Assembly (NCBI RefSeq): GCF_000381925.1
Contig: NZ_KB907308.1
Span: 1,612,001 to 1,676,000 of the forward strand
DNA from: Nocardia sp. BMG111209
GTDB lineage: Bacteria; Actinomycetota; Actinomycetes; Mycobacteriales; Mycobacteriaceae
Reading direction: 5' to 3'
Length of the DNA stretch: 64,000 bases
The notes below the pieces were generated by a model that worked only from the letters and a program-made list of their open reading frames with translations, had not been told where the DNA came from and did no database searches. Positions within the stretch are counted from its first letter, which is position 1; the number at the start of each line of letters is the position of its first letter. Shown here piece by piece: positions 1,203 to 48,613 of the stretch. Both the position numbers and the translations under genes were made by a program.

Positions 1203-1212
1203 GGCCGGCCTT

Positions 1213-2873: not shown

Positions 2874-2971
2874 CCGCCGATTATCGGGACCACCCCCGAC
2901 AGAACGGCCCCCCACAACCACTCCCGCACCCCTTGCCCCGAAAATGCCCCTACCGCAACCATTTCCGCACC

Positions 2972-3117: not shown

Positions 3118-3216
3118 ATGGTTGCCCGGACCGGCCCGTGCCCACCGCGGTGATTCGCCGGTCGGACCGTTGCTGCCGTGCTCGGAGCCTCGGCAGCGGC
3201 CACCGATCGAGCGCGC

Positions 3217-7630: not shown

Positions 7631-7708
7631 AACTACTATGTTGTCATCTCTCCGGCTCGGAACGGGCAATCCCGCCAACACTGGTACGGTACCGACGCAC
7701 ATCCAACC
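7631..7708 (-). promoter_or_regulatory. mtrA upstream region with GGTACGGTACC inverted repeat
   Basis: The 78 bases between the tmk stop and mtrA start hold an 11-bp inverted repeat (GGTAC-G-GTACC, 7683-7693). The region is a plausible mtrA promoter/operator, but no clear -35/-10 pair was assigned. Confidence 0.3.
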
Positions 7709-8356: not shown

Positions 8357-8421
8357 GTCGAGCAGGCTACCGCTCACCCCCGACAGGTTTTCGAGGCACC
8401 GCCGGAACCCGCCGAGCGCCG

Positions 8422-8447
8422 CCCGCCGGGCCGGAAGACCCGGCGGG
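8422..8447 (-). terminator. Hairpin after sahH
   Basis: A perfect 9-bp stem (CCCGCCGGG / CCCGGCGGG, eight-base loop) lies 17 bases beyond the sahH stop in the sahH-tmk gap. It has no T tract. Confidence 0.55.
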
Positions 8448-8464
8448 ACAACGATCCGCACGTC

Positions 8465-9940
<1,476 letters not shown>

Positions 9941-10031
9941 CTGCCTCTCCTGGTCGGCGTGTATACCGGAGAGACTAGTCGCCCCGATGCGTACACGGTA
10001 CGCATGGGGGCCCATCGGATTTCGGCCGGGT

Positions 10032-11207: not shown

Positions 11208-11527
11208 GCTAACTCCACATTAAGAAATCTCTGAATCGTCGCCAGTAGATATGTACAGACCCAGCGCCCGGGACGCCAGTCGGATCCGTCCGAAAGTTGT
11301 ATCTGGTACACACCGGTTGGTCTTTTTCGACGCCGAAAAACAGACGTTTGCTACAGCGCCGCACAGTCAGCGCACAGTAGGCAAACGCCCGGAAGCACCG
11401 CCTTCGCACCGTGGTACCGCGAGTCGCGCTATACCTGCCGGTTGGTGACATCGCACAGCCGACGCCCGGCATCCCTCGCGGGCTTGGCCGAATTGTTATA
11501 GACGGTCGACCGGATTTCGCGCGCCTC
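11208..11527 (-). promoter_or_regulatory. alkB upstream region with several inverted repeats
   Basis: This 320-base gap holds no supportable gene. It contains an 18-bp inverted repeat (TTTTTCG-ACGC-CGAAAAA, 11323-11340). A CGTTTGC/GCAAACG pair lies at 11345-11351 and 11381-11387. The 10-mer GTTTGCCTAC occurs at 11189-11198, over the alkB start, and again inverted at 11377-11386. These are candidate operator elements for alkane-responsive control; the regulator is not encoded beside them. Confidence 0.45.
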
Positions 11528-12268
11528 TCACCGCCGGTGGACATACCGGACCTGCGGTCGCCCGGTTCGCCCGTAGTCGGTGCGCCGCTGCACCGCACCG
11601 TCCGCGGCCAGCCGCTCCAGATACCGCCACGCCGTGACCCGTGAGACGCCTACGGCCGCACCCGCTTCGCCGGCCGACAGGCCCGCCGCGCTGTCGCGGA
11701 CCGCCCGGGCGATCTCGTCGAGCGTCTGCGGCGCGATACCCTTCGGCGCCCCGGCCCGCAGGTCCGTGGTGCGCAGCGCGCTCAACGCGCGGTCGATGTC
11801 CTGCTGGGTGGCCGCCGTCTCGCCGACCGGCAGCGCCGCGCGGAACTCCAGATAGCGATCCAGCTTCTCCCGGAACGCCGCGAACGTGAACGGTTTCAGC
11901 AGATACAGCGCCACGCCGTGCGCGACGGCCGCCCGCACCATCTCGAGGTCGCGCGCGGAGGTGATCGCGATGACGTCCGGCCGCGGCCGCAGCCGCGCGA
12001 GGGCCGCGGTGACCTCCAGGCCCGGGATGTCCGGCAGGCCCAGATCCATCAGCACCAGATCGATCGGGGCACCCTCGGCGGCGGCCGCCGCGGCGGCGCG
12101 CAACGCGTCGCGGCCGGTGTGCGCGACCGCCACCGGCCGGAATCCGGCCACCCGGTCCACGTACGAGGCGTGCGCGGCGGCGATGCGGGTCTCGTCCTCG
12201 ACGATCAGCACCCGCAATTCGGTAGCACCGGATCCGGCGGCCGGCGTGCCGGTTCGCGACCCGCTCAT
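11528..12268 (-). CDS. CitB/DctR-type response regulator
   Basis: Two-component regulator of the di/tricarboxylate-sensing class. The receiver domain has acidic pocket LIVEDE, phospho-Asp75 (LVLMDLGLPD) and Lys125 (LLKPF). A linker is followed by a C-terminal helix-turn-helix (about 188-235, LSAGEAGAAVGVSRVTAWRYLERLAADGAVQRR), as in CitB/DctR. The ATG is preferred because it overlaps the histidine kinase stop by four bases. The divergent dctA-like gene is the obvious target. Confidence 0.9.
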   Translation of the reverse strand: MSGSRTGTPAAGSGATELRVLIVEDETRIAAAHASYVDRVAGFRPVAVAHTGRDALRAAAAAAAEGAPIDLVLMDLGLPDIPGLEVTAALARLRPRPDVIAITSARDLEMVRAAVAHGVALYLLKPFTFAAFREKLDRYLEFRAALPVGETAATQQDIDRALSALRTTDLRAGAPKGIAPQTLDEIARAVRDSAAGLSAGEAGAAVGVSRVTAWRYLERLAADGAVQRRTDYGRTGRPQVRYVHRR

Positions 12269-13851
12269 GCCGAATCCTCCGATGTGCGCGGAATCCGAAC
12301 CACCACAGCCGATTCCGGCGCCCGCTCGGCGCGCAGCACGCCGTCGTACCGGGCCACCAGGCGGCGGACCAGCGCGAGCCCGAGCCCCTGATGATCGGTC
12401 TTGGTCGAATATCCCCGCTCCATCGCGCGGGCGAACGCCTCCTCCGACATGCCCGCCCCGCTGTCGGCCACCCGGATCAGCAGATCGCCGGCCTCGTGCC
12501 GGACGGTCACCTCCACCCAGCCGTCCGCGGTGCGGTCCACCGCGTCCAGCGCGTTGTCGACGAGATTGCCGACGAGCGTGACGATTTCGGGCGCGGTGAG
12601 CGGCGCCGCCGAGTTCAGCGCGGTATCCGTGCCGACGGTCAGTTCCACGCCGCGCTCCAGCGCCTGGTCCACCTTGCCGAGCAGCAACGCCACCAGGGCG
12701 GGTTCCCGCACGGCACCGGTGAGCCGGTCGATCAGCGCCTGTGACAGCCGCAGTTCGGCGGTCGCGAATTCGACTGCCTCCCGGTAACTTCCGAGCTCGA
12801 CGAGGGTGATCACGGTGTGCAGCCGGTTGGCCGACTCGTGGGCCTGCGCGCGCAGCGAGTCGGCCAGGCCGCGCATCGAGTCCAATTCGCCCATCATGTC
12901 CCGTAATTCGGTGTGATCGCGGACGGTGAGCACCGTACCGAGCGGACGTCCGGACCACTGCACCACGTCCTGGTTCACCACCAGCACTCGTTCGGTGGTG
13001 ACGTGCATCTCGTCGCGCACCACCGCGCGATCCGAGCGTCGCAACGAGATCGGCAGATCGACCCGGCGCACCGGTCCCTCGGGCAGTTCGAGCAGGCGTC
13101 GCGCCTCGTCGTTGACCACGGCCGCCTCGTCGTGACCGGCGTCGAAGACCACCAGGCCCTCGTGCACCGAGTGCAGGACCGCGTCGTGATGTTCGTACAG
13201 GGTGCGCAACTGGGCGGGGGCCAGCCCCTGGGTCTGCCGCAGCAACCGGCGCCGCAGCAACGCCGCGCTCAGCAGGGCCAGCAGCAGTCCGGCGCCGGCC
13301 ACCACCAGGAACAGCGGCACCTGGCGCCACACCTGATCACCGATGCGGGCCCGGGTCAGCCCCGCGGACACCAGGGCCACGATGCGATCCCCGTCGTACA
13401 CCGGGGTCACCGCGCGGATCGACGGGCCGAGGGTGCCGGAATAGGTCTCGGTGAAGGTCTCCCCGGCCAGCGCGCGATCGATGGTGCCGGTGAACGGTTT
13501 TCCGATGCGGTCGACCTCGGTGTGCGTGTAGCGGGTGCGATCCGGCGCCATCACGACGATGAAATCGACGCCGGTGCGCAACCGGATCCGCTCGGTCTCC
13601 GGCTGCAGCAGGGCCGTCGGATCCGGACTGCCGACCGCGGCGACCGTCGAGGGCGCCTGGGCCACCGCGACCGCGATACCGGTCACCCGGTCCCGGGTCG
13701 CGGCGTCCTGTTCGTGGCGCACCTCCAGCACGGCCAGCGCCAGTCCCACCACGATCAGCACGACCAGCAGCACCGCCTGGACCGCGAAGACTTGCCCCGC
13801 CAGCGTCATGGGCCGATCGGGCCGGCGTCCCGGCCGAATTCGCCACGCCAT
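12265..13851 (-). CDS. DcuS/CitA-type sensor histidine kinase
   Basis: A 528-residue membrane kinase. The first membrane segment (about 20-42) is followed by a periplasmic PASTA/Cache-like sensor (about 45-180, with MAPDRTRYTHTEVDRIGKPFTG as in DcuS/CitA), a second segment (about 185-208), a PAS domain, the CitA-type acceptor region QAHESANRLHTV and the ATPase domain (GNLVDNALDAV, DSGAGMSEE, GLGLALVRRL). Such kinases sense external C4-dicarboxylates or citrate. The ATG has a strong GGGGAGGT site. Operon with the regulator, divergent from the carrier. Confidence 0.9.
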   Translation of the reverse strand: MAWRIRPGRRPDRPMTLAGQVFAVQAVLLVVLIVVGLALAVLEVRHEQDAATRDRVTGIAVAVAQAPSTVAAVGSPDPTALLQPETERIRLRTGVDFIVVMAPDRTRYTHTEVDRIGKPFTGTIDRALAGETFTETYSGTLGPSIRAVTPVYDGDRIVALVSAGLTRARIGDQVWRQVPLFLVVAGAGLLLALLSAALLRRRLLRQTQGLAPAQLRTLYEHHDAVLHSVHEGLVVFDAGHDEAAVVNDEARRLLELPEGPVRRVDLPISLRRSDRAVVRDEMHVTTERVLVVNQDVVQWSGRPLGTVLTVRDHTELRDMMGELDSMRGLADSLRAQAHESANRLHTVITLVELGSYREAVEFATAELRLSQALIDRLTGAVREPALVALLLGKVDQALERGVELTVGTDTALNSAAPLTAPEIVTLVGNLVDNALDAVDRTADGWVEVTVRHEAGDLLIRVADSGAGMSEEAFARAMERGYSTKTDHQGLGLALVRRLVARYDGVLRAERAPESAVVVRIPRTSEDSA

Positions 13852-13884
13852 CCGACCTCCCCGGTGAACGAAATGTACGAAACA

Positions 13885-13898
13885 GTGACCCGGGTCAC
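13885..13898. promoter_or_regulatory. Perfect 14-bp palindrome in the kinase/dctA divergent promoter
   Basis: GTGACCCGGGTCAC lies in the 104-base gap between the divergent kinase and carrier genes. The GTGA-N6-TCAC layout is that of CRP-family sites. It could equally be the operator of the adjacent response regulator. Confidence 0.5.
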
Positions 13899-13955
13899 CG
13901 TAGCGATGAGGATCACAACCTGCAGACATCGCAGTACCGAAGGCAGTGACCCGAT

Positions 13956-15314
13956 ATGAGCATGACAGCGCCCCGGCCGCAACGCCGTGACCGCACCCAT
14001 TGGCTGTACCTGGCCGTCATCGTGGCCGTGGTGGCCGGCATCCTGACCGGCTGGCTGGCGCCCGGTTTCGGGAAATCGGTCGCCGACCTCGGCACCATCT
14101 TCGTCAATCTGATCAAGATGATGATCTCGCCGGTCATCTTCTGCACGATCATCCTGGGTATCGGCTCGGTCCGGGCGGCGTCCCGGGTCGGCAAGGTCGG
14201 CGGCCTGGCGATCGGCTACTTCCTGATCATGTCGACGGTGGCGCTGGCGATCGGCCTGGGCGTGGGCAATCTGCTGCACCCCGGCAGCGGCCTGAACATC
14301 GCCGCGCACGCGAAGGATGCCGCCAAATATGCCAAGCAGGCCGAGGGCGCCGGCGGGACCTGGCAGTTCGTCGAGAGCATCATCCCGACCTCGCTGTTCT
14401 CCTCGCTCACCGCGGGCAGCGTGCTGCAGACCCTGTTCGTGGCGCTGCTGTTCGGTTTCGCCATCCAGGCACTGGGCCGGGCCGGCGAGCCGGCGCTGCG
14501 GGCGATCGGCCTGTTGCAGCGGCTGGTGTTCCGGATCCTGACCATGATCCTGTGGCTGGCCCCGATCGGCGCCTTCGGCGCGATGGCGAACGTGGTCGCC
14601 ACGACCGGGCTCGACGCGGTGAAACAGTTGGCGCTGTTGATGGTCGCGTTCTATCTCACCTGCGTCCTCTTCGTCTTCGGCGTGCTGGGTGTGCTGGCCC
14701 GGGTGGTCGCGCGGGTGTCGATCTTCCGGCTGGTCCGCTATCTGGCCCGGGAGTTCCTGCTGATCTTCTCCACGTCGTCGTCGGAATCGGCCCTGCCGCG
14801 GCTGATCGCGAAGATGGAGCACCTCGGCGTCGAACGCACCACCGTCGGCATCGTCGTACCGACCGGCTATTCGTTCAACCTCGACGGCACCGCGATCTAC
14901 CTGACCATGGCGTCACTGTTCATCGCCGACGCGATGGGTAAGCCGATGGCGATCGGCGAACAGGTCGGCCTGCTGGCGTTCATGGTGATCGCGTCGAAGG
15001 GCGCCGCGGGTGTCACCGGTGCAGGCCTCGCCACCCTGGCCGGCGGCCTGCAGAGCCATCGGCCGGATCTGCTCGGCGGGGTCGGCGTGATCGTCGGTAT
15101 CGACCGGTTCATGTCCGAGGCGCGCGCGCTCACCAATTTCGCGGGCAATGCCGTCGCCACCGTCCTGGTCGGCACCTGGACCCGGACCATCGATGCCGAA
15201 CGGGTGCGGGCGGTGCTGGCCCGCGAGATCCCGTTCGACGAGGCCACGATGGTCGATACCCACACCGAACCGGCCGAACCGGAACCGGCCGCCGAGGATC
15301 TGGTCCCGGCCTGA
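13956..15314 (+). CDS. dctA: DctA-type cation:dicarboxylate symporter
   Basis: Imports C4-dicarboxylates (succinate, fumarate, malate) or glutamate with Na+/H+. The 452-residue protein has the DAACS-family features: about eight membrane segments, the serine-rich hairpin STSSSESALPRLI (272-284), and GTAIYLTMASLFIADAMG and GVTGAGLATLAGGL further on. The ATG follows GGCAGTGACCCGAT with weak ribosome-site character. Expression is very likely set by the divergent two-component system. A glutamate carrier is the main alternative. Confidence 0.9.
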   Translation: MSMTAPRPQRRDRTHWLYLAVIVAVVAGILTGWLAPGFGKSVADLGTIFVNLIKMMISPVIFCTIILGIGSVRAASRVGKVGGLAIGYFLIMSTVALAIGLGVGNLLHPGSGLNIAAHAKDAAKYAKQAEGAGGTWQFVESIIPTSLFSSLTAGSVLQTLFVALLFGFAIQALGRAGEPALRAIGLLQRLVFRILTMILWLAPIGAFGAMANVVATTGLDAVKQLALLMVAFYLTCVLFVFGVLGVLARVVARVSIFRLVRYLAREFLLIFSTSSSESALPRLIAKMEHLGVERTTVGIVVPTGYSFNLDGTAIYLTMASLFIADAMGKPMAIGEQVGLLAFMVIASKGAAGVTGAGLATLAGGLQSHRPDLLGGVGVIVGIDRFMSEARALTNFAGNAVATVLVGTWTRTIDAERVRAVLAREIPFDEATMVDTHTEPAEPEPAAEDLVPA

Positions 15315-15321
15315 TCCGTCC

Positions 15322-15338
15322 GTTCCCGGGCCGGGAAC
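15322..15338 (+). terminator. First hairpin after dctA
   Basis: GTTCCCG-GGC-CGGGAAC, a perfect 7-bp stem with a three-base loop, starts 8 bases after the dctA stop. It forms a tandem pair with the longer hairpin just downstream. Confidence 0.6.
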
Positions 15339-15341
15339 AGC

Positions 15342-15384
15342 GCGCCGGCGGGCTCGGAGTCCCCTCACAGGAGCCCGCCGGCGC
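15342..15384. terminator. Bidirectional 14-bp-stem hairpin between dctA and the NUDIX gene
   Basis: GCGCCGGCGGGCTC and its exact complement GAGCCCGCCGGCGC flank a 15-base loop between the two convergent genes, 10 bases from the NUDIX stop. This is the strongest terminator-like structure in the window. Confidence 0.75.
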
Positions 15385-15394
15385 ATCCCACTGT

Positions 15395-15913
15395 TCAGCG
15401 CAACAACACGTCGGCACCGTCGGGCAGCGCGCCGACGGGCCACCAGCGCAGATCGAGGGATTCCGAACTGCGCACGGGGACAGCGCCTTCGGGGGCCACC
15501 ACCTTGAACAACAGATCCAGATGCCGGGTCGGCACGCCCAGCGAACAGGTGATCGGGTGCGCCTGGGCCCCGTACAACCCGGACCCGAGCGACAGACCGT
15601 CGATACCGGACTCCTCGGTGGCCTCCCGCAGCGCGGCGGCCGCGACGGAATCATCGGATTCCTCACAGTGCCCGCCCAATTGGATCCAGCGGCCGACCCG
15701 GGGATGCAGGGTCAGCAGCACCTCGCGCTCGTCGTGCGAGAAGACCACCGCCGAGGCGGTGATATGCCCGGGAGCGTGCTCGCGCAGACAGCCGCGCGGT
15801 GCGGAACCCAGGAAGGCGAGCAGCGCCTCCCGCAGTGAACGCTCCGGACCGGCTGCGGGACACCAGCTTTCGATCAGATCACGGGCCGAGGCGTGCAGCG
15901 ATTCGGCGGTCAC
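15395..15913 (-). CDS. NUDIX hydrolase
   Basis: A 172-residue hydrolase of a nucleoside diphosphate linked to some moiety; the substrate is unknown. The NUDIX box is complete (about 80-104: GGHCEESDDSVAAAALREATEESGI), with REATEESG giving the metal-binding glutamates. The GTG start gives MTAESLHASARDLIES, with a GGGACGGAG site before it, 31 bases after the fbiB stop. The frame is open far upstream into fbiB, but that is a shadow. Position suggests co-transcription with fbiA-fbiB. Confidence 0.85.
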   Translation of the reverse strand: MTAESLHASARDLIESWCPAAGPERSLREALLAFLGSAPRGCLREHAPGHITASAVVFSHDEREVLLTLHPRVGRWIQLGGHCEESDDSVAAAALREATEESGIDGLSLGSGLYGAQAHPITCSLGVPTRHLDLLFKVVAPEGAVPVRSSESLDLRWWPVGALPDGADVLLR

Positions 15914-15944
15914 CGTGCTCCGTCCCGGAAGATGTTGCCGCGCT

Positions 15945-17309
15945 TCACAGTTCGACCAGTCCCGGACCCGGCTCACGCGGCGCGCGGGGCACAAGCTCCT
16001 CGGCCGGGTAGCCGATCGCGATGGCGCCCAGCGGATTCCACTCCGGCTCCAGGCCCAGGACCGCACGGGTGGTGTCCGCGGCGAAGATGGTCGAGCCGAT
16101 CCAGCAACTGCCGACGCCCCGGGTGGCGAGCGCGACCAGCAGGCCCTGTACGGCCGCGCCGACCGCGACGGTGAACATCGTCGATTCCGCGGCCCGGCGG
16201 CGCTCGTCCGGATAGTCGTGAGCGCCGTCGGGAACGCAGAACGGGATGACCACCTCGGGCGCGTCGAACAGGATGCGGCCCCGGGCGACCCGGCGTTCCA
16301 CACTGTCCGGGGTGCGGCCGTCGCCGGTCAGATCGGTCCGCCAGGCGTCGGCCATGGACTCCAGCAGCCGGGTGCGCAGCGCCGGGTCACGGACCCAGAC
16401 GAACCGGACCGGCCGGGTGTGGTGCGGGGCCGGGGCGGTGAGCGCGTCCGCGACGGCGGCGCGGATCAGTTCGGGTTCGACCGGGGTGTCGGCGAACTGC
16501 CGCACCGAGCGGCGCAGCAGCAGCGCCTCGCGCCGGCCGCGATCGAGCGCCTCGGCGGTGCCGAGCCAGAACAGATCGTCGTCGCCGCCGCGCAGCAGAT
16601 CCGCCGCGCGGGAACCGTCGTCGTACGGGGTGAGGCCGCGGACCACCGCCACCGGCACACCGCCCAGCTTGCCCTTCGCCAGATCGGCCGCGGCGGCGAG
16701 TTCGTCGGCGACGGCGACCTGGGTGACGTGCAATTCGTTGCCCTGGCCGTCGACCGCGCCGGCGTAGTCGTGCAGGACCCGCAGGCCGGCGGCGCCGATG
16801 GCGGCATCGGTCTGCCCGTTGCGCCAGGCCCGGCCCATGGTGTCGGTGACCACGACCGCGACGTCGACGCCGAGCAGTTCGGCCAGCGCGGACCGCAGCG
16901 CCACGGCACTGGCGTCGGGATCGGTGGGCAGCAGAACCAGTTCGCCCCGTTCGACATTGGAGCCGTCGACCCCGGAGGCGGCCTGCACGATGCCGATCTT
17001 GTTCTCGGTGATCAGGGTCCGGCCCTTCTGGGCCAGCACCCGCACCGCCTCGGTGCGGACCAGTTCGCGGCGCAGCGCGTCGCGCTCGTCCGGATCGTCC
17101 GGCGCCGCGACGATGCGGCCCTCGACCTTGGCGACGATCTTGCTGGTCACCACGAGGATGTCGCCGTCGGCCAGCCAGGGCGCCTTCGCCGCGAGTTGTG
17201 CGGCGAGGTCGTCGCCGGGCCGGAACTCCGGCAATCCGGTCACCGGGAGGATGCGCAACTCCCCACCGGGCGCGTGATCACCGCTCTCGGGCAGAACCAG
17301 TTCGCTCAC
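15945..17309 (-). CDS. fbiB: Coenzyme F420-0:L-glutamate ligase FbiB
   Basis: Adds the gamma-linked glutamate tail to F420-0. The C-terminal flavin domain reduces dehydro-F420-0 in mycobacteria. The 454-residue protein has the CofE-type ligase domain (about 15-250: [44 protein letters not shown]) fused to a nitroreductase-fold domain (about 260-450: [38 protein letters not shown]), the standard actinobacterial fusion. GTG start with GGAAAGG site. It lies 64 bases downstream of fbiA. Confidence 0.95.
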
Positions 17310-37579: not shown

Positions 37580-37969
37580 TCAGCCGACCGCGGATCGGAC
37601 GGTCTCGAGCAGATCGACCAGGCGGACCGTGTCCTCGTACCAGCCACGCAATTCGTCGACCGTGGGCGCGAGTTCGTAGTCGTGGTGATGGCCGGCCCGC
37701 GACAACACCGCCCACAGCGCCGAGATGCGGGCCGCGACCTCCGCACCGGTGTAGACGTCCAGGGCCAGCAGCTGCGCGCGCATACTGCAGCGCGCGAGCG
37801 GCGGCGCCACCCGCAGCCACAACTGGTCGATGGCCTGTTCCAGGGTGATGCGCAGAATCCACACCGTGGCCCGCGACCACAGCCCACCGGCATCGGTCAC
37901 CGCGCCGCGCAGCAGGTCGTCGGCAGCGGCGAGCCGTTCCGGCACGGTCGGGGTCACCTGCTCAGCCAT
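37580..37969 (-). CDS. Small helical, HEPN-like protein paired with an SMC-like ATPase
   Basis: A 129-residue, mostly helical protein. Near the C-terminus, SRAGHHHDYELAPT gives an R-x4-H arrangement (Arg91, His96), which is the catalytic pattern of HEPN RNases. The first half has LEQAIDQLWLRV and MRAQLLAL helices. ATG start; it overlaps the end of the ATPase gene by 16 bases, so expression is coupled. The HEPN assignment is an inference from motif and helical content, not from a search. A role as toxin/effector or as a structural partner of the ATPase are both possible. Confidence 0.65.
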   Translation of the reverse strand: MAEQVTPTVPERLAAADDLLRGAVTDAGGLWSRATVWILRITLEQAIDQLWLRVAPPLARCSMRAQLLALDVYTGAEVAARISALWAVLSRAGHHHDYELAPTVDELRGWYEDTVRLVDLLETVRSAVG

Positions 37970-40458
37970 GCGATCAATTTCCTGGTGCCGGAGAGCAATT
38001 CGTTACCGCTGCGGCCGATGCGGATGTGCGCGCCGGCCGCGACGTCTCCGAGCACCGATTTCGCCCAGGGCGCGTCGTGGTCCAGCAGATCGTTGAGATC
38101 GTCGACCAGATTCGGTTCGCCGAACACCGCCAGCGACACCTTCTCCCGGGTGGTGCGGGCCGCGTCGACGCGGCGCTGTACCTCCCGATGGTCGACACCG
38201 TCGGCCAGCAGCTGCGCTCGCGCGCGGGCCAGCGCGGCCGCCTCGACGGCCGAGCGGCAGCAGGTGACGACCAGTTCCGTGGCGATCGCCTTCGGCAGTT
38301 GGCGGGTTCGCAGCAGCGCGTTCGCGTCGTCGAGATATCGGCGCACCGGATCCTGGCCCACCCGCACCTCGACCACCGACCGTTCGCGCCGCTGCACGTC
38401 GAGAACCGTTGCCCCCAAACGTAATCGGCGCACCGCCTCGGCCAGCCGCTCGTCGTGGGTGAACACCACCACCTGCCGGCCGCTGCGGGCGACCGCGGCC
38501 AGCACCTGGGCCAGGCCGTCCACCTTCGCCGGATCCATCGCCTGCACGGGATCATCGATGACCACGAAACCGAACGGGCTCTCCGGCACCGTGGCCCGCG
38601 GCAGGAACAGCGCCAGCCCCAGGGCGTGCAGTTCGCCCTGGCTCATCACGCCGAGCGCGCTGGCGCCGGTGTCGTCCACGGTGACGTCCAGCAGCACCTT
38701 GCGGGTCGCCCCCGCGGTGCCCTGCAGCCGGACCACCCCGAGGTCGACGTTGCTCTGCTGGCGCAGGCCGCGCCAGATCCGCCGGGCGTGGTCGGCCAGC
38801 GGCGCCATCCGCTCGTCACGCAGGCCCGCCGCGGCGGATTTCAGCCACTCCTCCGCGCGCTTGACCGTCCGCAGTTCCGGCTCCGCGGCCGCGGCGCCCG
38901 CCGCATCCTGCGCCCAGGCCGCGATCCGCGGCACCAGCGGGGTCCAGGCCGCGTCCAGGCGGTCGAGTTCCTTGCGGGCCGAACGTTGCAGCGCGGCCAG
39001 GCAGCGCGCCGCGTCGGCGTGCGCACCGCGCAGGCGGTCGCCGCGTGGGGTGCCGGCGCACGGCGTATCCGCCGGGCAGGCCTCGCCGACCGCGGCGGCC
39101 CAGACCGACCAGGTCCAGCGGGCCGGGCCGGTGTCCACCCCACTGCCGTCCAGCGTCGAGGGGTCCAGCTCGGCCGGAACCGGTTGGACCAGGGCCCGCA
39201 CCCGGCGAAGAGCCGCGTCCAATGCGTCGTGCGCGGCGGTGAGCGCGGCCGCCCGCTCGGTGAGGCGAGCGATCTGCGCGTCGGCCTCGTGCTGCCACCG
39301 CTGATCGAGCGTGCCCTGTCCGCACAGCGGGCACGAGACCTCACCGCCGGCGTGGGCATGTACCCGGGCGCGTCGCAGGAGGTCCAGTACGCGCAGTTCG
39401 GCCTCGGTATCGCCGGTGCTGTGCGTGGCCAGCGCCGCGAGACCGTCGTCCAGGACAGTGGCGGCCGCGTCGACCTCGGCCGCCTCGGGCAGCCGCAGCC
39501 GCAGGATCGCCTGCAGCGCGGCCGCACCCGCCGGATCGTGCCGGGCGCCGGCCAGCTCGCGGCCGAGCTCCGACAGGTCCGGCTGGGCGTCGCGCAATAA
39601 TCCGGCAACCCGCACGGCGCGCTCGTCCGCCACGGCCTCCAGGTCCGCCAGCAGGACCTGACGCTGGTCCTTGCACTGCCGCGCGGCCCGTTCCAGCTCC
39701 AGCCGCCGCGTCCGGGTCCGTTCCTGCGCGGCGGTCAGATCGTCGAGTCCGAGCAGCCGGTGCAGCGCGTCGAACAGGTCACTGGGACGGCCGTCGACCA
39801 GGGCGCCGAGTTCGCTGTAGGACAGGAACGGACGGTACAGCTCGAGGGCCCGCGCCCAGTCCCCGGCGGCGAACTCGGCGGGCGCGGATCCGTTGCGCTG
39901 CACGGTCCATCGGCCCTCGGCCAGATCGACGCCGCCGGGCCACGCCCGGGTGACGGTGAACATGCCGGTCGGGCTCGAGGCGGTCAGCTCCAGATCGATG
40001 CGGGACTCGTCCCCGTCGTGCAGATTCCGCCAGCCCTCCCGCCACACCGACGACCGGCCCGACCAGCGCCGATTGTGGCCGGTCAGTACGAGTTCGGCGG
40101 CCTCGGCGAAACTGGACTTACCGGATCCGTTGCGCCCCACCACAAGTGTGAGTCCCGGTCCGGGCGGTAATCGCAGCACCGCCTCCGGCCCGATTCCGCG
40201 GAAACCGCGAACCCGGATGGCGCGCAGAAAGATTCCCGTGCACTCCTGGACCGAACCCGTTCGATCCGGCGAGACGCCGAGTGCGTCGAGCACCGTACCG
40301 GCGACATCGTCGGTGACCGACGCGTCCGCCGCCAAGCGGCGCGAAACCAGATCGAACAGGCGCGGCGCAGCCCGCCCGGGATCGTCGGGGGCATCCCCCA
40401 CCTGGCCACTCCCTCTGCCGTGCATGCCCTCTGCCGCGCATGTGAGCACGCCCGGCAT
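37954..40458 (-). CDS. SMC/Rad50-like ABC-fold ATPase with CPxCG motif
   Basis: An 834-residue ATPase. An ~85-residue leader precedes the head domain with Walker A GRNGSGKSS (108-116). A long helical central region contains CPLCG (376-380), as at a zinc hook. The second head part has ABC signature MSQGE (605-609), Walker B VVIDDP (632-637) and the H-loop VVFTHDE (664-670). About 150 further residues follow. The start is the ATG after GGAGG; a GTG ten codons earlier lacks a ribosome site. RecF/RecN-type repair and defence ATPases share this plan. Pairing with the HEPN-like gene favours a conflict role, which is inference. Confidence 0.8.
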   Translation of the reverse strand: MPGVLTCAAEGMHGRGSGQVGDAPDDPGRAAPRLFDLVSRRLAADASVTDDVAGTVLDALGVSPDRTGSVQECTGIFLRAIRVRGFRGIGPEAVLRLPPGPGLTLVVGRNGSGKSSFAEAAELVLTGHNRRWSGRSSVWREGWRNLHDGDESRIDLELTASSPTGMFTVTRAWPGGVDLAEGRWTVQRNGSAPAEFAAGDWARALELYRPFLSYSELGALVDGRPSDLFDALHRLLGLDDLTAAQERTRTRRLELERAARQCKDQRQVLLADLEAVADERAVRVAGLLRDAQPDLSELGRELAGARHDPAGAAALQAILRLRLPEAAEVDAAATVLDDGLAALATHSTGDTEAELRVLDLLRRARVHAHAGGEVSCPLCGQGTLDQRWQHEADAQIARLTERAAALTAAHDALDAALRRVRALVQPVPAELDPSTLDGSGVDTGPARWTWSVWAAAVGEACPADTPCAGTPRGDRLRGAHADAARCLAALQRSARKELDRLDAAWTPLVPRIAAWAQDAAGAAAAEPELRTVKRAEEWLKSAAAGLRDERMAPLADHARRIWRGLRQQSNVDLGVVRLQGTAGATRKVLLDVTVDDTGASALGVMSQGELHALGLALFLPRATVPESPFGFVVIDDPVQAMDPAKVDGLAQVLAAVARSGRQVVVFTHDERLAEAVRRLRLGATVLDVQRRERSVVEVRVGQDPVRRYLDDANALLRTRQLPKAIATELVVTCCRSAVEAAALARARAQLLADGVDHREVQRRVDAARTTREKVSLAVFGEPNLVDDLNDLLDHDAPWAKSVLGDVAAGAHIRIGRSGNELLSGTRKLIAWLSR

Positions 40459-40889
40459 GTCGTCACGCCTCCGAGCCGATTTCCCCACCGGCCGTCCGCG
40501 AACTCCTTCGTTCGCCGAAGGAGGCTGTGCGGGAACGGTACCCGATCGGCGCCGGTTCCGCGTCGTCCGAAGAACCGGCCCGGCGGGACGCTATGGCCAT
40601 CGAGAACGTCCGTTCCGACCCGATGTCCACCCCTCGGTCGTCCCGGCCGGGGCAGTTCCAACGAATGCACCCGAAGTGGGTGGCCCGGGTTGAACCGAAC
40701 AGAACAGAATGCCAGATGCCTTCTCATGCGGCAAGGGTTCTTGACGCCACCAAACCCGCACCGCGCCATGGCAATTGATCAGCAATCGATATCGCGCGCA
40801 CCCTGCGGAGTCACCGGATCGGGCGGTGCCGGATTCTTGTCGGTGGCTTCCGATACAAATCCGGGCAAGCGAGCGGAGGGGGAGCGACG
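40459..40889. promoter_or_regulatory. Divergent control region between ATPase and SWIM operons
   Basis: This 431-base gap has no supportable gene. A perfect dyad CTCCTTCG-N5-CGAAGGAG (40503-40523) lies 45 bases upstream of the ATPase start. On the other side, a GATACAAAT box (40852-40860) and a GGAGGGGGAG ribosome site precede the SWIM gene. The region between (about 40600-40800) is somewhat less GC-rich than its flanks. Confidence 0.4.
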
Positions 40890-43748
40890 ATGACCACAAC
40901 TGCCACCGGAGTGGACACCATGAGCTGGACCGCGGATCGGATCGCCGCCCTGGCGCCGGACGCCGCCTCCCTCACCGCCGCCCGCAAGCTCCGCGGCCGA
41001 TGGAGCGGCACCGGTCGGCACGGGGCGGCGCTGTGGGGCCTGTGCGGAGGTAGCGGATCGACGCCGTATCGCACGATCGTGGATCTGGACGGACCGGCCT
41101 ACCGCTGCTCCTGCCCGAGCCGGAAATTCCCCTGCAAGCATGCCCTCGCCTTGCTGCTGGCCTGGTCCGACGGCATCGTGCCCGAGGCCGGCGCGCCCGC
41201 CGACTTCGCCGCCGAGTGGCTGGCCGCGCGGGCCACGCGCGCCGCGAAACCCGTTGCGGCCGTGGATCGGACACCCAAGCAGGCCACGGTCGAACAGCGC
41301 CGGGCCCGGGTCGCCGCGGGGCTCGCGGATCTGGACGTGTGGCTGTGCGATCAGATCCGCACCGGGCTGGCCCAGTCCGACCGTTCGTTCCGGGCCTTCG
41401 AGACCATGGCCGCGCGGATGGTCGACGCGCAGGCGCCCGGGGTCGCGGCGGCGCTGCGGCAACTACCGCACATCGTCGTCGTCCGGCCCGACTGGCCGGT
41501 GGTGCTGTTGCGCGAATTCGGCCGCCTGCATCTGCTGGCCACCGCGCACCGGCGGCTGGACGAACTGACGCCCGCACTCGCCGCGAGCGTGCGCACCCAT
41601 GTCGGCTATCCGGCCGTCGCCGAGACCGTGCGGGCGCAGCCGCCGGTGCGCGATCGCTGGATGGTGCTGGGACAACGGCAATCCGAGGAGGATCGCCTGT
41701 ACACGCGGCGAGTCTGGTTGCGCGGCCGGGAATCCGGCCGCTGGGCGACGATCGTCGACCACAGCTTCGGCAGTCCTGCCTTTCCGCCCGATATGCCGCT
41801 GCCCGGCACGATGCTCGACGCCGACCTGCACTTCCATCCGGCCGCCGCACCCCTGCGTGCCGTCTGGGGCGCCCGGCACGAGGTCGCCGAGCCGTTCACC
41901 ACCGTGCCGGCGGCCCGTGCGGCCGGGATCGCCACGGCGCTACGCGAGCACGCCGCCGCGCTCGGCGCCGATCCGTGGCTGCGCGGATGGCCGGTGCTGC
42001 TGCCGGAGGTGGTGCCGGTGGTGACCGAAAACGACTGGTACGTCCGCGAATCCGACGGCCACGCGCTGCGGCTCGCGCGGTTCGCCGAGGCGCCCTGGTC
42101 GCTGCTGGGGGTGTCCGGCGGTCATCCGGTGGCGGTGATCGGTGAGTGGACCGCCGACGGGCTGGTGCCGATCTCGGTGTTCACCGCCGGCGACATCGTC
42201 GGCATCACCGCCGATCCGGTGTCCGGGGCGCCGGGCGACACCTCGGCCGATCCGATGTCGACGGCACTGCTGGGCACCGCCCGCCGCGGGGTCCGGACGG
42301 CGGAACTGCCGGCGCCTGTCGCGGCGGCGGCAGCGCGTTTCTCCGGCGATCCGGCCGCGGTCCTGCTCGACATCGCGGTCGTGCACGATCTCTTCGCCCG
42401 GGGCGCGATCCTGCCGGAATCCGTCCCCGCGCCCGAACCGGCCACCGACGACGAGCGCCTGGTGCTACCGCAGGCGGCCGCCGCCCGGCTGGCCGAACTG
42501 CTCACGAGCAACTCCCCGTTCCTGCCCGAATGGTTCGAGGCGGCCGAGCGCCCGGCGTTCCGGGCCCCGGACGCACTGGCCGGCCTGGTTCTGGACCAGG
42601 CACGCACCCGGACGGAGTTACGGGAGACGCTGTTACGGCTCGCGGGCACCCGCGGCACGTGGCTGGCCCGGCAGAATCCGGCCTGGCGCACCCTCGTCCG
42701 GACCACACCGGAGGGCGCCGACGTCTGGTCGCACGGCCGGGCCGCCGAGCGGCGCGTCTGGCTGAGCACGCTGCGCGCCCGCGATCCGGAACGTGCCCGG
42801 GAGACGCTGGCCGATTCGTGGCGGCGCGAACCGGGTCCGGTGCGTGCGGAGTTGCTCGCCGTACTGTCCGACGGGCTCACCCTCGCCGACGAACCACTGC
42901 TCGAGTCCGCCCTGGACGATACGCGCGCGGAGGTGCGGCTCGTGGCGGCGGAACTGCTTGCCCGCCTGCCCGATTCGGCCTTCGGCCGGCGCATGGAGTT
43001 ACGGGCGGCGCAGTGGCTGCCGTTATCCTACGGGCAACTCTCGGTGCGCATACCGCCGGAACCGGATGCCGGCGCGCGGCGCGACGGGCTCGCGGCCCGG
43101 CCGAGCGGCGCCGGCTACCGTCTCGGCGGCCTGCCCGACGCCCGCGCCGAACGCTTGCACCGCCTCGTCGCCGCGACCCCGTTGCGGTATTGGCGGTCAC
43201 TGTCGGTGACCCCGGCCACCGCGGGTGAGGTCGAACTCGACGACGGCATGCTCGCGCCTTGGTTCGCCGGACTGGCCGAGGCGGCCCTGGCCCAGCAGGA
43301 CACGGCCTGGGCCACCGCCCTGTTCGACCTGTTCGGCAAGGCGCCGACGCTCGGTCCCACCGTGGAGGTGCGCCGGGAGTTGTTCGCGCTCCTGCCCGCC
43401 GACGATCGGCTGCGACGCCTGCGCGCACTGGACAGCAGCTGGCTGGCCGAACTGGAACTCCTGGTTCCCGCGATGCCGCGACCGTGGCCGGTGCCGCTCG
43501 CCGACCATGTGATCCGGCTGCTGCTGGATCGCGCCCACCTGGCCACGGCGCGGCCCGGCGCACCCGGCCTGTCCCCCGTCTCCTACCGCAGCCTGTTCCA
43601 CGCGGCCGCGGTGAATTTCCCGACCGATACGGCCGACACCGTACTGGTCGCGGCTCGCCGCTGCGGAGATCCGCAGTGGGAGCGCGCCTTCGAACACCTC
43701 GCCGGCGACCTGACCCTACGCAAGACCATGCTCGAGGAGCTGCGATGA
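40890..43748 (+). CDS. SWIM zinc-finger protein fused to a DUF5691-like region
   Basis: A 952-residue protein. The SWIM motif C-x-C-x6-C-x-H is Cys73, Cys75, Cys82, His84, in a context typical of the YehQ-like family (GPAYRCSCPSRKFPCKHALALLLAW). From about residue 457 (STALLGTARRGVRTAELP) it resembles DUF5691 proteins, which I recall as separate neighbouring genes in Streptomyces; the rest looks HEAT-like helical. SWIM fingers bind nucleic acid or protein. It heads a four-gene operon and its stop overlaps the MoxR ATG by four bases. Biochemical role unknown. Confidence 0.85.
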   Translation: MTTTATGVDTMSWTADRIAALAPDAASLTAARKLRGRWSGTGRHGAALWGLCGGSGSTPYRTIVDLDGPAYRCSCPSRKFPCKHALALLLAWSDGIVPEAGAPADFAAEWLAARATRAAKPVAAVDRTPKQATVEQRRARVAAGLADLDVWLCDQIRTGLAQSDRSFRAFETMAARMVDAQAPGVAAALRQLPHIVVVRPDWPVVLLREFGRLHLLATAHRRLDELTPALAASVRTHVGYPAVAETVRAQPPVRDRWMVLGQRQSEEDRLYTRRVWLRGRESGRWATIVDHSFGSPAFPPDMPLPGTMLDADLHFHPAAAPLRAVWGARHEVAEPFTTVPAARAAGIATALREHAAALGADPWLRGWPVLLPEVVPVVTENDWYVRESDGHALRLARFAEAPWSLLGVSGGHPVAVIGEWTADGLVPISVFTAGDIVGITADPVSGAPGDTSADPMSTALLGTARRGVRTAELPAPVAAAAARFSGDPAAVLLDIAVVHDLFARGAILPESVPAPEPATDDERLVLPQAAAARLAELLTSNSPFLPEWFEAAERPAFRAPDALAGLVLDQARTRTELRETLLRLAGTRGTWLARQNPAWRTLVRTTPEGADVWSHGRAAERRVWLSTLRARDPERARETLADSWRREPGPVRAELLAVLSDGLTLADEPLLESALDDTRAEVRLVAAELLARLPDSAFGRRMELRAAQWLPLSYGQLSVRIPPEPDAGARRDGLAARPSGAGYRLGGLPDARAERLHRLVAATPLRYWRSLSVTPATAGEVELDDGMLAPWFAGLAEAALAQQDTAWATALFDLFGKAPTLGPTVEVRRELFALLPADDRLRRLRALDSSWLAELELLVPAMPRPWPVPLADHVIRLLLDRAHLATARPGAPGLSPVSYRSLFHAAAVNFPTDTADTVLVAARRCGDPQWERAFEHLAGDLTLRKTMLEELR

Positions 43749-44848
43749 CGACGACCGAAACCACTTCCGGCGACCTGCTGCGCCCGCACGCCGAACAGGC
43801 CTTCGCCGAGGAACTGCGCGCACTGGCCGCGGTCGACGACCGGCCCCGCCCGCCGTCGTGGCGGCTGTCGCCCTGGGCGGTGGTGACCTATCTCCTCGGC
43901 GGGGTGCTGTCCGACGGCACGACCGTCAGCCCCAAGTACGTGGGCCCGCGCCGATTGCTGGAGGTGGCGGTGGCCACCCTCGCCACCGACCGCGCCCTGT
44001 TGTTGCTCGGTGTGCCGGGTACGGCGAAAACCTGGGTCTCGGAACATCTTTCGGCCGCCGTCTGCGGCGCCTCGACGCTGCTGGTGCAGGGCACCTCCGG
44101 CACCGCCGAGGAGGCGATCCGTTACGGCTGGAACTATGCGCGGCTGCTGGCCGAGGGGCCCAGTACCGGCGCGCTGGTCCCGTCGCCGGTCATGACGGCG
44201 ATGCGCCTGGGTTCCATCGCGCGGATCGAGGAGCTCACCCGCATCCCCTCCGATGTGCAGGACGCGCTGATCACGGTGCTGTCCGAGAAGACCCTCCCGG
44301 TACCCGAACTCGGCACCGAGGTGCAGGCGGCCAAGGGGTTCAACGTGATCGCCACCGCCAACGACCGCGACCGCGGGGTGAACGAACTGTCGTCGGCGCT
44401 GCGGCGGCGGTTCAACACGGTCGTGCTGCCGCTGCCCGCCACCGAGGACGAGGAGGTGGCGATCGTGACCCGGCGCGTCGAACAGCTCGGCGCCGCACTG
44501 GAACTGCCCGCGGTACCGGCGGCCGCCGAGGAGGTCCGGCGCGTGGTGCGGGTGTTCCGGGAACTGCGCTCCGGCATCACCGCCGACGGCCGCACCAAAC
44601 TCAAATCGCCGTCGGCCACGCTGTCGACCGCGGAGGCGATCTCGGTGCTCACCAGCGGCCTCGCTCTCTCCGCGCATTTCGGCGACGGCGTGCTGCGGGC
44701 CGCCGATGTGGCGGGCGCGGTCCTGGGCGCGGTGATCAAGGATCCGGTCGCGGACGCGGTCGTGTGGACCGAATATCTGGAGGCCGTCGTCCGCGAGCGC
44801 GAGGGCTGGTCCGATTTCTACCGCGCCTGCCGCGAGGTACACGAATGA
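43745..44848 (+). CDS. MoxR-type AAA+ ATPase (YehL-like)
   Basis: A 367-residue AAA+ ATPase with Walker A GVPGTAKT (89-96), a Walker B-like IARIEEL, sensor 1 FNVIATANDRD and arginine finger region LSSALRRRF. MoxR ATPases act as chaperones that remodel protein complexes, usually with a VWA partner, which is encoded three genes on. ATGA overlaps on both sides show tight co-translation with the SWIM and DUF5682-like genes. Confidence 0.92.
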   Translation: MTTTETTSGDLLRPHAEQAFAEELRALAAVDDRPRPPSWRLSPWAVVTYLLGGVLSDGTTVSPKYVGPRRLLEVAVATLATDRALLLLGVPGTAKTWVSEHLSAAVCGASTLLVQGTSGTAEEAIRYGWNYARLLAEGPSTGALVPSPVMTAMRLGSIARIEELTRIPSDVQDALITVLSEKTLPVPELGTEVQAAKGFNVIATANDRDRGVNELSSALRRRFNTVVLPLPATEDEEVAIVTRRVEQLGAALELPAVPAAAEEVRRVVRVFRELRSGITADGRTKLKSPSATLSTAEAISVLTSGLALSAHFGDGVLRAADVAGAVLGAVIKDPVADAVVWTEYLEAVVREREGWSDFYRACREVHE

Positions 44849-47208
44849 ATGACGCCGACCCCTGCCCACCGGCCGAGGACCCACCCGAGACGAGGGTTTT
44901 CGGCATCCGGCACCACGGCCCCGGTTCGGCGCGTTCCGTGCGCTTGGCGCTGGAACGCTTCCGGCCCGACGCCATCCTCATCGAGGGTCCGGCGGACGCC
45001 GACCCGCTCATCGGCTATGTGGCCGCCGACGGGATGGCACCGCCGGTCGCACTGCTGGCCTATGCGCCCGACACCCCGGCCCACGCCGCCTTCTGGCCGT
45101 TCGCCGTCTTCTCCCCCGAATGGCAGGCGCTGCGCTACGCCGTCGACAACGGTGTCGCCGTGGGCTTCTGCGATCTGCCCGCCACCATGGTCCTCGCCGC
45201 CGACGCCGGGCCCGGCGACCGCACGGACCCGCTCGCCGAACTGGCGGCCGCCGCCGGCTACGACGATCCGGAACGCTGGTGGGACGCCGTCATCGAATCC
45301 ACCGCGGACGCGGACATCTTCGACGCCCTCACCGAAGCGATGACGGCCCTGCGTGAACCCGTCCCCGAGGCCATGCTCGGCCCGACCGCGATCCCGGCCG
45401 ATCCACTGCCACCACACGCCCCGGCGGACACGCCCCTCGATCCGAATCCGGGCGATCAGCGGTCCGAGGCGGCGGACGCTGCGCGGGAGCCGGTGCACGA
45501 CAACGGTTCCCGGATCGACCTGCACACCCTGCGGCGTGAGGCGTACATGCGTCAGGTGATGCGGCAGGCGCTCAAGGGCGGGGCCCGGCGGCTGGCGGTG
45601 GTGTGCGGAGCGTGGCACGCCCCGGCACTGGCCGGGAAACTCGGCCCGGCGGTCGCGGATGCCCGGCTGCTGAAGGGACTGCCGAAGACGAAGGCCACGC
45701 TGACCTGGGTGCCCTGGTCGCATTCGCGGCTGGCCGACGCCTCCGGCTACGGGGCCGGCATCACCTCGCCGGGCTGGTATCACCACCTGTTCACCGAGAC
45801 GGATCGACCGATCGCACGCTGGCTGACGAAGGTCGCCGGACGACTGCGGGCCCAGGACCTACCCGTGTCCAGCGCGCACATCATCGAATCCGTCCGGCTG
45901 GCGGACACTCTGGCGGTCCTGCGCGAACGTCCCCTGCCCGGCCTGTCGGAGGTGACCGACGCGACCCGCGCGGTGCTGTGCGACGGCGACGAGTCGCTGC
46001 TGCGCCTGATCGGCGCCGATCTGGTCGTCGGCGAGGCGCTCGGATCGGTCCCCGACGACGCGCCGACCGTACCCCTCGACGCGGACCTGCGGGCCCAGGC
46101 CCGGACGCTACGGCTGAAACAGCAGGCCCACGAACAACTTCTGGACCTGGATCTGCGCAAGGATCGCGAGGTCGCGCGATCACATCTGCTGCATCGCCTG
46201 CGGCTGCTCGGAATCGACTGGGGTACACCCACTTCCAGTGAGGTGCGCAGCACCGGCACCTTCCGGGAGACCTGGGCCCTGCGCTGGGAACCGCAACTGT
46301 CGATTGCCGTCGTCGAGGCCTCGCGCTGGGGTACCACCATCGCGGCGGCCGCCCGGGCCAAACTTCTCGACGTCGTCGCCGACGAGGGCGCGACGGTCGA
46401 AACGGTCGGCCGCGCGCTGGAATCGGCACTGCTGGCAGCCCTCGACGACGCGATCGAAGGTCTGGTCGCACGCCTGGAATCCGTTGCGGCACTGGATCAC
46501 GACGTCACCCATCTGCTGGCGGCACTGCCCGGGGTGATCCGCACGCTGCGCTACGGCGATGTGCGGGGCACCGATGTCGGGGCGCTGGCGCGGGTCGCCG
46601 ACGGTTTGTTGATCCGCATCTGCGCCGGCCTGGCCGGGGCGGTCACCGGCCTGGACACCGACGCCGCGATCGCCGTCCGCACCCTGCTCGACGCGGCCCA
46701 CCTGGCCATCGCCACCCGCGACGACGCCCACGCCACCGGCACCTGGCTCGCGGCGCTGCGCGCCTCGGCCGATCGCACCGACGTGCACGGCGCACTCGTG
46801 GGCCGTATGGTCCGGTTGCTGTGCGACGCAGGCATTTTCGACGACGCCGAGGCGGCCCGCCGAGTGTCGGCCGCCCTCTCGATCGGCCACTCCCCCGCCG
46901 AGAAGGCCGCGTGGATCGACGGCTTCCTCGGCGGCCGCGGCCTGCTCCTGGTCCACGACGCCGAACTGCTCGGGCTGGTCGACACCTGGCTGCGCAGCCT
47001 CGACGACGATCAGTTCACCGCCACCCTGCCCCTGCTGCGCCGCACCTTCGGCAGCTTCGAAGCCGGTGAGCGCCGCGCGATCGCCCAGGCCCTTCGCGGC
47101 GGCGCACGGACGGCCGCCCACACCGCCACGGCATCGGCCGAGCACGATGCCGAACGGGGCGCCCTGGCCCTCACCGCCGCCTTGGACATCCTGGTGGTCG
47201 CCCGATGA
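44845..47208 (+). CDS. DUF5682-like protein (YehM-like)
   Basis: A 787-residue protein. The N-terminal half carries VFGIRHHGPGSARSVRLALERFRPDAILIEGPADADPLI and, later, RRLAVVCGAWHAPAL; these GxRHHGPGS and GxWHxP motifs recall the TraB/EreA-like hydrolase superfamily. An acidic, Pro-rich insert lies about 175-225. The C-terminal half is helical. Always associated with MoxR and VWA genes in the clusters I know. Catalytic role unproven. Confidence 0.82.
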   Translation: MNDADPCPPAEDPPETRVFGIRHHGPGSARSVRLALERFRPDAILIEGPADADPLIGYVAADGMAPPVALLAYAPDTPAHAAFWPFAVFSPEWQALRYAVDNGVAVGFCDLPATMVLAADAGPGDRTDPLAELAAAAGYDDPERWWDAVIESTADADIFDALTEAMTALREPVPEAMLGPTAIPADPLPPHAPADTPLDPNPGDQRSEAADAAREPVHDNGSRIDLHTLRREAYMRQVMRQALKGGARRLAVVCGAWHAPALAGKLGPAVADARLLKGLPKTKATLTWVPWSHSRLADASGYGAGITSPGWYHHLFTETDRPIARWLTKVAGRLRAQDLPVSSAHIIESVRLADTLAVLRERPLPGLSEVTDATRAVLCDGDESLLRLIGADLVVGEALGSVPDDAPTVPLDADLRAQARTLRLKQQAHEQLLDLDLRKDREVARSHLLHRLRLLGIDWGTPTSSEVRSTGTFRETWALRWEPQLSIAVVEASRWGTTIAAAARAKLLDVVADEGATVETVGRALESALLAALDDAIEGLVARLESVAALDHDVTHLLAALPGVIRTLRYGDVRGTDVGALARVADGLLIRICAGLAGAVTGLDTDAAIAVRTLLDAAHLAIATRDDAHATGTWLAALRASADRTDVHGALVGRMVRLLCDAGIFDDAEAARRVSAALSIGHSPAEKAAWIDGFLGGRGLLLVHDAELLGLVDTWLRSLDDDQFTATLPLLRRTFGSFEAGERRAIAQALRGGARTAAHTATASAEHDAERGALALTAALDILVVAR

Positions 47209-47402
47209 ACGAACCGGCCTTGCTCCTCCGCTCCGATCAGGCGGCCGACGGTGTCGCGAAGCCGTTGGGCCGCAAGGGAAAACACGCGGTTCCGGCGATC
47301 GGACCACGGTACTCGCCGACGCGACCCGCACGGACCGGCGCGACCGAACACCGAACTCGGCCACGGCATCACCGGCATCGGAGAAAGGAAGTCCAGCGAT
47401 GA
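47205..47402 (+). CDS. Possible 65-codon bridging ORF
   Basis: An ATG overlaps the DUF5682-like stop by four bases, and the TGA overlaps the VWA ATG by four bases, exactly filling the 190-base gap. The product has a neutral start and a very basic Arg/His-rich end. Codon third positions are GC-rich in the first half, less so in the second. No family recognised. It may be a small operon member, a translational coupler or coincidence. Confidence 0.35.
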   Translation: MNEPALLLRSDQAADGVAKPLGRKGKHAVPAIGPRYSPTRPARTGATEHRTRPRHHRHRRKEVQR

Positions 47403-48613
47403 GCGACACCTCGGACAACCCCGTCGCAGCAGCTCCGCACCCGGATCCCGACGACGAAACACGTTCGCGCCGTTGGCGACTGGTACTCGGCGCCCCGGCC
47501 GAAGCCGGTCTGGGCGGCCTGGATTCGGCCGACGATGTGGCGATGGATCGAGCGCTGTCGGCCCTGTACAACTCCGACGAGCAGACGCCCGGCGAGAAAC
47601 GCTCGGCGGGACTGGGCGGTTCGGCGCCCAAGGTGGCGCGCTGGCTCGGCGACATCCGCAACTATTTCCCGTCCACGGTGGTGGAGGTGATGCAGCGCGA
47701 CGCGGTGGAACGCCTGCACCTGACCCAGTTGCTGCTGGAACCCGAACTGCTCGAGGCGGTCGAGCCGGACGTGCATCTGGTCGGCACGCTGCTGAGCCTG
47801 AACCGGGTGATGCCCGAGACCACCCGCGCCACCGCCCGCGTGGTGGTCGAGAAGGTGGTGCGGGAGATCGAGCGCCGGATCGCGGATCGCACCGTCGCGG
47901 CCGTGTCCGGCGCGCTGGATCGCGCCGCGCGGACCACCCGTCCCCGGTTACGAGATATCGACTGGGACCGCACCATTCGCCGCAACCTCGCGCACTACCT
48001 GCCCGAGCAGCGCACGGTGGTGCCGGAGCGCCTGGTCGGCCACGGCCGCAAGTCGAATGCGGTGCGCCGGGACGTGGTACTGGCGATCGACCAGTCGGGG
48101 TCGATGGCGTCGAGCGTCGTCTATGCCTCGGTGTTCGGGGCGGTACTGGCGTCGATGCGATCGTTGCGGACCTCGCTGGTGGTGTTCGACACGGCGGTCG
48201 TCGATCTCACCGAGGACCTGCACGATCCGGTGGACGTGCTGTTCGGCACCCAACTCGGCGGCGGCACCGATATCAATCGCGCGATCGCCTACTGCGGGCA
48301 ACTGATCACCCGGCCGGCCGACACGCTGTTCGTCCTGATCTCCGACCTGTACGAGGGCGGCATCCGCGACGAGATGCTGCGCCGGGTGGCCGCCATGAAG
48401 GAGGCCGGTGTGCAGGTGCTGGTACTCCTGGCCCTGTCCGACGACGGCGCGCCCGCCTACGACCACGACAACGCCGCGGCGTTGGCGGCATTGGGGGTGC
48501 CGGCCTTCGCCTGTACCCCGGACGCCTTCCCGGAACTGCTCGCCGTCGCACTGGATCGCGGTGATGTGGCCGGCTGGGCCCGGACCGCGGCCCTGCGGCA
48601 CGGGACGCACTGA
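47399..48613 (+). CDS. VWA-domain protein (YehP/CoxE-like)
   Basis: A 404-residue protein. The MIDAS metal site is DQSGS (231-235) with GGGTD (287-291) and LISDLYEGG. The N-terminal ~220 residues are helical with an arginine-rich stretch (RDIDWDRTIRRNLAHY). It should be the partner or substrate adaptor of the MoxR ATPase. ATG after GGAAG. Last gene of the operon. Confidence 0.92.
   Translation: MSDTSDNPVAAAPHPDPDDETRSRRWRLVLGAPAEAGLGGLDSADDVAMDRALSALYNSDEQTPGEKRSAGLGGSAPKVARWLGDIRNYFPSTVVEVMQRDAVERLHLTQLLLEPELLEAVEPDVHLVGTLLSLNRVMPETTRATARVVVEKVVREIERRIADRTVAAVSGALDRAARTTRPRLRDIDWDRTIRRNLAHYLPEQRTVVPERLVGHGRKSNAVRRDVVLAIDQSGSMASSVVYASVFGAVLASMRSLRTSLVVFDTAVVDLTEDLHDPVDVLFGTQLGGGTDINRAIAYCGQLITRPADTLFVLISDLYEGGIRDEMLRRVAAMKEAGVQVLVLLALSDDGAPAYDHDNAAALAALGVPAFACTPDAFPELLAVALDRGDVAGWARTAALRHGTH

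Follow-up and report, generated by a model that had tools for sequence, protein, structure and literature searches.

A two-gene ATPase-HEPN pair of Nocardia as a candidate RloC-like defence module

Within a 64,000-nt stretch of the Nocardia sp. BMG111209 genome (contig NZ_KB907308.1, positions 1,612,001 to 1,676,000; hereafter, the window), two overlapping minus-strand genes encode a Rad50/SMC-like ATP-binding cassette (ABC) ATPase and a small separate HEPN protein. With somewhat better than even confidence, we read this pair as an effector module of two proteins on the lines of RloC, a tRNA-cutting enzyme that joins a zinc-hook ABC ATPase to an anticodon nuclease; its probable role is defence by sensing DNA and cutting RNA. 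The two genes are usually annotated in Nocardia as 'AAA family ATPase' and 'hypothetical protein'. Their open reading frames (ORFs) overlap by 16 nt (37954-37969), and since both proteins are kept as neighbours in other actinobacteria, the pairing is not a matter of chance. An earlier interpretation drawn from the letters of the window (the sequence-only reading) had reported both ORFs, the overlap, and the Walker A, CPxCG, MSQGE, Walker B, H-loop and SRAGHHH motifs, all of which are present. The genes and their candidate active-site positions are:

37580-37969, minus strand: gene of the small separate HEPN protein, 129 aa
37850..37852, minus strand: codon of R40 (R-x3-E) of the small protein, conserved in 32/32 relatives
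37838..37840, minus strand: codon of E44 of the small protein, conserved in 31/32, D in one
37688..37690, minus strand: codon of H94 of the small protein, conserved in 32/32
37954-40488, minus strand: gene of the Rad50/SMC-like ABC ATPase, 844 aa as listed ORF
37957..38367, minus strand: C-terminal HEPN-like domain of the ATPase, residues 708-844, with R745, E749 and H821

Searches with the small protein returned no match in Pfam, PADLOC or NCBIfam up to an E-value of 1, and nothing meaningful in the PDB by sequence. Its modelled fold is that of a HEPN helical domain, in agreement with its earlier description as HEPN-like. Across 32 diverse relatives, R33, R40 and H94 are invariant, and the sequences share the pattern R-x3-E-x48-52-H. 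The sequence-only reading had placed the active site at R91/H96, within the SRAGHHH stretch (R-x4-H) that does occur in the window's copy; this pair of residues was rejected as catalytic, with R91 kept in 15/32, H96 in 28/32 and both in 12/32. Nor is the canonical Rx4-6H of HEPN RNases conserved otherwise, an arginine lying 5-7 positions before H94 in 6/32 sequences.

The same reading had rightly taken the small protein for a HEPN protein, but its count of one such domain in the pair was incomplete: the modelled fold of ATPase residues 708-844 is likewise a HEPN helical bundle. Here R745 and E749 are each kept in 30/32 and H821 in 32/32 domains, giving the pattern R-x3-E-x66-77-H. Again, Rx4-6H is not conserved, with an arginine 5-7 positions before H821 in 13/32 sequences and absent there from the window copy. 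Comparison of the two HEPN profiles yielded a local score of 20.5 (maximum of 60 shuffles, 16.9), with the R-x3-E columns aligned. According to excerpts of the published work, RloC and PrrC use an Arg-Glu-His triad, spaced Arg-X3-Glu-X36-52-His in RloC, where alanine in place of any of the three residues abolished activity (PMC2610378). Because the R-x3-E...H pattern in both domains resembles this essential triad, an RloC-type site is plausible in both, with R40, E44 and H94 of the small protein and R745, E749 and H821 of the ATPase as the exact candidate residues. The RloC/PrrC-like logic of the earlier interpretation finds support in this pattern.

Conceivably, one of the two domains is the nuclease and the other its regulator, for example if the ATPase HEPN domain docked the small HEPN RNase in an inactive state in a toxin-antitoxin-like manner. 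The small protein's spacing of 48-52 fits RloC and the 66-77 of the ATPase domain does not; moreover, an RloC-type C-terminal profile scored 18.1 with the small protein (60-shuffle maximum 13.4, with the His motif aligned), whereas its score with the ATPase HEPN domain did not exceed that of shuffles, and homology of that domain to the RloC C-terminus was rejected. Against this arrangement stands the near invariance of R745, E749 and H821, which exceeds what we would expect of a docking surface and makes a docking role less likely. We consider a single-nuclease arrangement improbable.

The two genes are tightly coupled, as the sequence-only reading had supposed. Among 169 fetched ATPase loci, 168 (145 distinct sequences) had over 650 matched residues, the partial L151 being left out, and in 154 of these a HEPN gene lies directly downstream on the same strand. 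The other 14 comprise two contig ends and 12 ATPases from genomes of one family, f19 (L052-L063, fetched from 12 of the 22 f19 genomes with a match), which end before the C-terminal HEPN domain and are not accompanied by a HEPN gene. This HEPN-less case probably represents one event rather than twelve; one of the f19 genomes (G546) additionally holds a complete pair (L044). In a survey of 301 genomes of the family, the ATPase was found in 66, the HEPN protein in 65 and both in 64, the three singletons being partial genes. Identity matrices of the two proteins correlate with r = 0.92 over 66 dereplicated pairs, a value uncorrected for shared ancestry. That the fused and the free HEPN are gained and lost together is the main reason to think that they touch.

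The ATPase itself carries the following motifs, in addition to an H-loop THD at residues 677-679:

40114..40137, minus strand: Walker A GRNGSGKS, residues 118-125, conserved among the aligned ATPases
39322..39333, minus strand: zinc-hook-like motif CPLC, residues 386-389 (CPLCG, 386-390)
38632..38649, minus strand: ABC signature VMSQGE, residues 614-619 (MSQGE, 615-619)
38533..38562, minus strand: Walker B/D-loop VIDDPVQAMD, residues 643-652

C386, P387 and C389 are invariant across 34 sequences. Pfam SMC_N, AAA_21 and AAA_23 match the protein over their cut-offs; AAA_13 reached 14 bits on the ATPase and 34.1 on a relative from a Streptomyces plasmid, both short of the cut-off of 36. Translation probably starts at the GTG at 40401, giving a protein of 815 aa, as its alignment with relative P0078, also of 815 aa, and a GAGGGAG 5′ of that codon suggest.

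RloC offers a model for how these parts might work together: its nuclease is restrained by the Rad50-like part and switched on by linear DNA with ATP hydrolysis and by DNA-break inducers, as excerpts of PMC3874168 describe. By analogy, the ATPase would sense the state of DNA, be it broken, replicating or foreign, and its ATP cycle would shift the C-terminal HEPN domain, which would pair with the free HEPN protein. Dimers are the usual form of HEPN RNases (PMC13092281, in part), and the pair so released would be a heterodimer cutting host RNA, probably tRNA, so that an infected or damaged cell would stop growing, an abortive outcome. A more specific version is tentative: the two HEPN domains might contribute to a split active site, forming an obligate heterodimeric RNase that cuts only when the DNA-engaged ATPase joins the halves, with type I restriction-modification (R-M), BREX or Shango neighbours as the first line and the pair as suicide back-up, and with the Nocardia copy domesticated as a chromosomal switch for DNA damage or infection.

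The genomic surroundings of the pair fall into two settings, a core Nocardia locus and scattered copies elsewhere, and it is the latter that point to defence. Lineages were dereplicated at 80% ATPase identity, and a defence gene was found in the fetched stretch of 16/39 non-core lineages vs 2/40 control stretches (Fisher p 0.00013), both control matches being helicase matches at about 27%. The homologues are therefore not always core loci free of defence genes, the outcome that would have spoken against the earlier proposal of a defence association. This count leaves out matches of fewer than 250 aligned residues and three queries (DUF6119, a 739-aa hypothetical protein and a plasmid helicase). 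The queries were drawn from L123, L126, L127, L128, L144, L147, L149, L155 and L156, with self-matches at these loci; among the family-survey loci L163-L182, 20 loci hand-chosen from the 66 ATPase-bearing genomes and the source of no query, 7/20 had a defence gene (p 0.0044). The other 23 non-core lineages, Lentzea included, gave no match with this small query set.

Type I R-M genes lie near the pair at L123 (HsdM/HsdR), L124, L128 (type I methyltransferase, together with a GmrSD-type gene), L164, L165, L166, L068, L155 and L156, the last two being Streptomyces plasmids, pM92 in the case of L155, with hsdRSM on L156 and its methyltransferase on L155. Type IV restriction genes are found at L144 (type IV restriction endonuclease), L145 and L167 and, at 38% identity, at L173, L177 and L178; HmaC neighbours the pair at L066 and L149, BREX PglZ/BrxD/BrxH at L126 and Shango SngABC at L127. 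At the latter locus (340-17186, a Pseudonocardia metagenome-assembled genome) the pair directly follows SngABC, with an SbcC-like ATPase farther downstream. Both Streptomyces plasmids share a cluster of methyltransferase, 739-aa hypothetical protein, DUF6119, TPR protein, ATPase and HEPN genes, and a UvrD-like helicase of ~1185 aa is encoded directly downstream of HEPN. In Lentzea flava (L129, 11447-15069), two genes follow the pair, the second encoding an AAA_27/SMC-like ATPase.

These neighbours come from 226 genes called at 28 non-core loci, 101 of which (17 loci) were passed through PADLOC and Pfam, with 20 chosen singly; PADLOC reported 168 families for the 101, of which 25 were listed. 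In a control of 77 neighbours from the window and five core loci, one of them read in the wrong frame, PADLOC reported 35 families; 22 of the 25 listed were PD-T4-6, which is of kinase type, and no R-M or BREX name occurred among these 25.

The core setting weighs against a defence-island reading of the window's copy. The pair is present in 26/29 same-genus genomes among those listed in the survey, flanking genes are alike on both sides in 49/52 core loci (in two of the remaining three a contig end interrupts the locus; the YchJ query of this test has one stop, taken as its terminal stop), and 15 core Nocardia sequences form a single clade (support 0.999). The defence query set gave no match in core Nocardia loci (0/17 lineages), so that the proposed association applies to the non-core relatives but not to the copies at this fixed site. 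Such constancy, along with the existence of the 12 HEPN-less f19 ATPases, would suit a housekeeping complex for DNA repair or chromosome maintenance in Nocardia, in which an SbcC/Rad50-like ATPase acts with a non-catalytic HEPN protein of structural or nucleic-acid-binding function. It would fit less well with those relatives that lie near R-M, BREX, Shango and Hma genes, two of them on plasmids, with retention of R-x3-E...H in both HEPN domains, and with the patchy distribution beyond the genus (40/272 other family genomes, if unlisted genomes without a match all lie outside it). On balance we regard such a repair complex as unlikely.

Non-core copies, 0/58 of which share the core flanking genes, occur in other genera, on the two Streptomyces plasmids and, as an additional divergent version, in some Nocardia. 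Matches were obtained in 6 of 72,556 plasmid records; the match spans over half the query in three, namely one 2.7-Mb Nocardia farcinica record and the two Streptomyces plasmids. A tblastn search of 50,697 phage records, which did not extend to viral contigs, returned no match. Under the effector-module reading, an otherwise patchy module would have become fixed at one chromosomal site in Nocardia. A divergent operon encoding SWIM/DUF5691, AAA_5 (a MoxR-like type), DUF5682 and VWA_CoxE proteins adjoins the pair at 40890-48613 of the window, and its place there is conserved in most core Nocardia loci. MoxR-vWA pairs have been described in conflict systems in PMC7159879, the main text of which makes no mention of DUF5682 or DUF5691.

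The pair is not named in the libraries scanned, and a search of the open literature, with subscription papers mostly outside its reach and an earlier description thus possible, found no account of it. Among small actinobacterial HEPN families, HEPN_SAV_6107 (PF18726) is similar in being listed without Rx4-6H (PMC3710099, in part), and one relative of the small protein (P0020) bears this name in UniRef. Membership was rejected, as the PF18726 model matches neither the small protein nor 36 relatives. The genome's own PF18726 member is another gene (G000:C1:3684155-3684442, 112 bits), on a different contig from the pair.

Like a Lamassu system, the pair combines a small Rad50-like ATPase bearing a zinc hook with an effector gene, and HEPN could be imagined as the Lamassu effector. 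PADLOC LmuB models do match the ATPase, at up to 51.7 bits where the top match, mad3, reaches 68, and LmuB homologues often carry a CPxCG-like zinc hook (PMC10586767, in part). The effector of Lamassu varies, according to the same review, whereas the downstream partner of our ATPase belongs to one HEPN family in 154 of 168 loci, HEPN being the one partner looked for across them, as opposed to LmuA and LmuC; in addition, the C-terminus of this ATPase is itself HEPN-like, and HEPN has 0 occurrences in the review's main text. We regard a Lamassu-type system as very improbable.

Closer in architecture are the ABC-HEPN fusions of Anantharaman et al. 2013 (PMC3710099), which likewise join an ABC ATPase to a C-terminal HEPN domain in defence contexts; unlike the pair, no two-gene, two-HEPN module appears in the parts of that paper examined. 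Copies of the pair near type I R-M genes resemble PrrC, whose linkage to type Ic R-M is constant (PMC3874168, in part). With RloC, the pair shares a CxxC-bearing Rad50-like ABC ATPase, an IDDP variant of Walker B that recurs in the L152 RloC-like protein, and a C-terminal HEPN-type domain with R-x3-E...H; all nine RloC-type proteins compared (three found via AAA_13, six plasmid relatives of one) have the CxxC and R-x3-E columns. It differs from RloC in lacking an AAA_13 match over cut-off, in the Glu-to-His distance of the ATPase HEPN domain (66-77, beyond 36-52, the fitting 48-52 being found on a separate chain) and in having another, free-standing HEPN protein. Although the pair may work like RloC, these differences, together with the lack of a conserved Rx4-6H, set it apart as a novel form among ABC ATPase-HEPN systems. 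If so, an actinobacterial, two-HEPN, RloC-like design would join the DNA-sensing, RNA-cutting defences, a pair of genes annotated without function in Nocardia would gain a meaning, and a patchy, partly plasmid-borne module would have turned into a genus-core locus.
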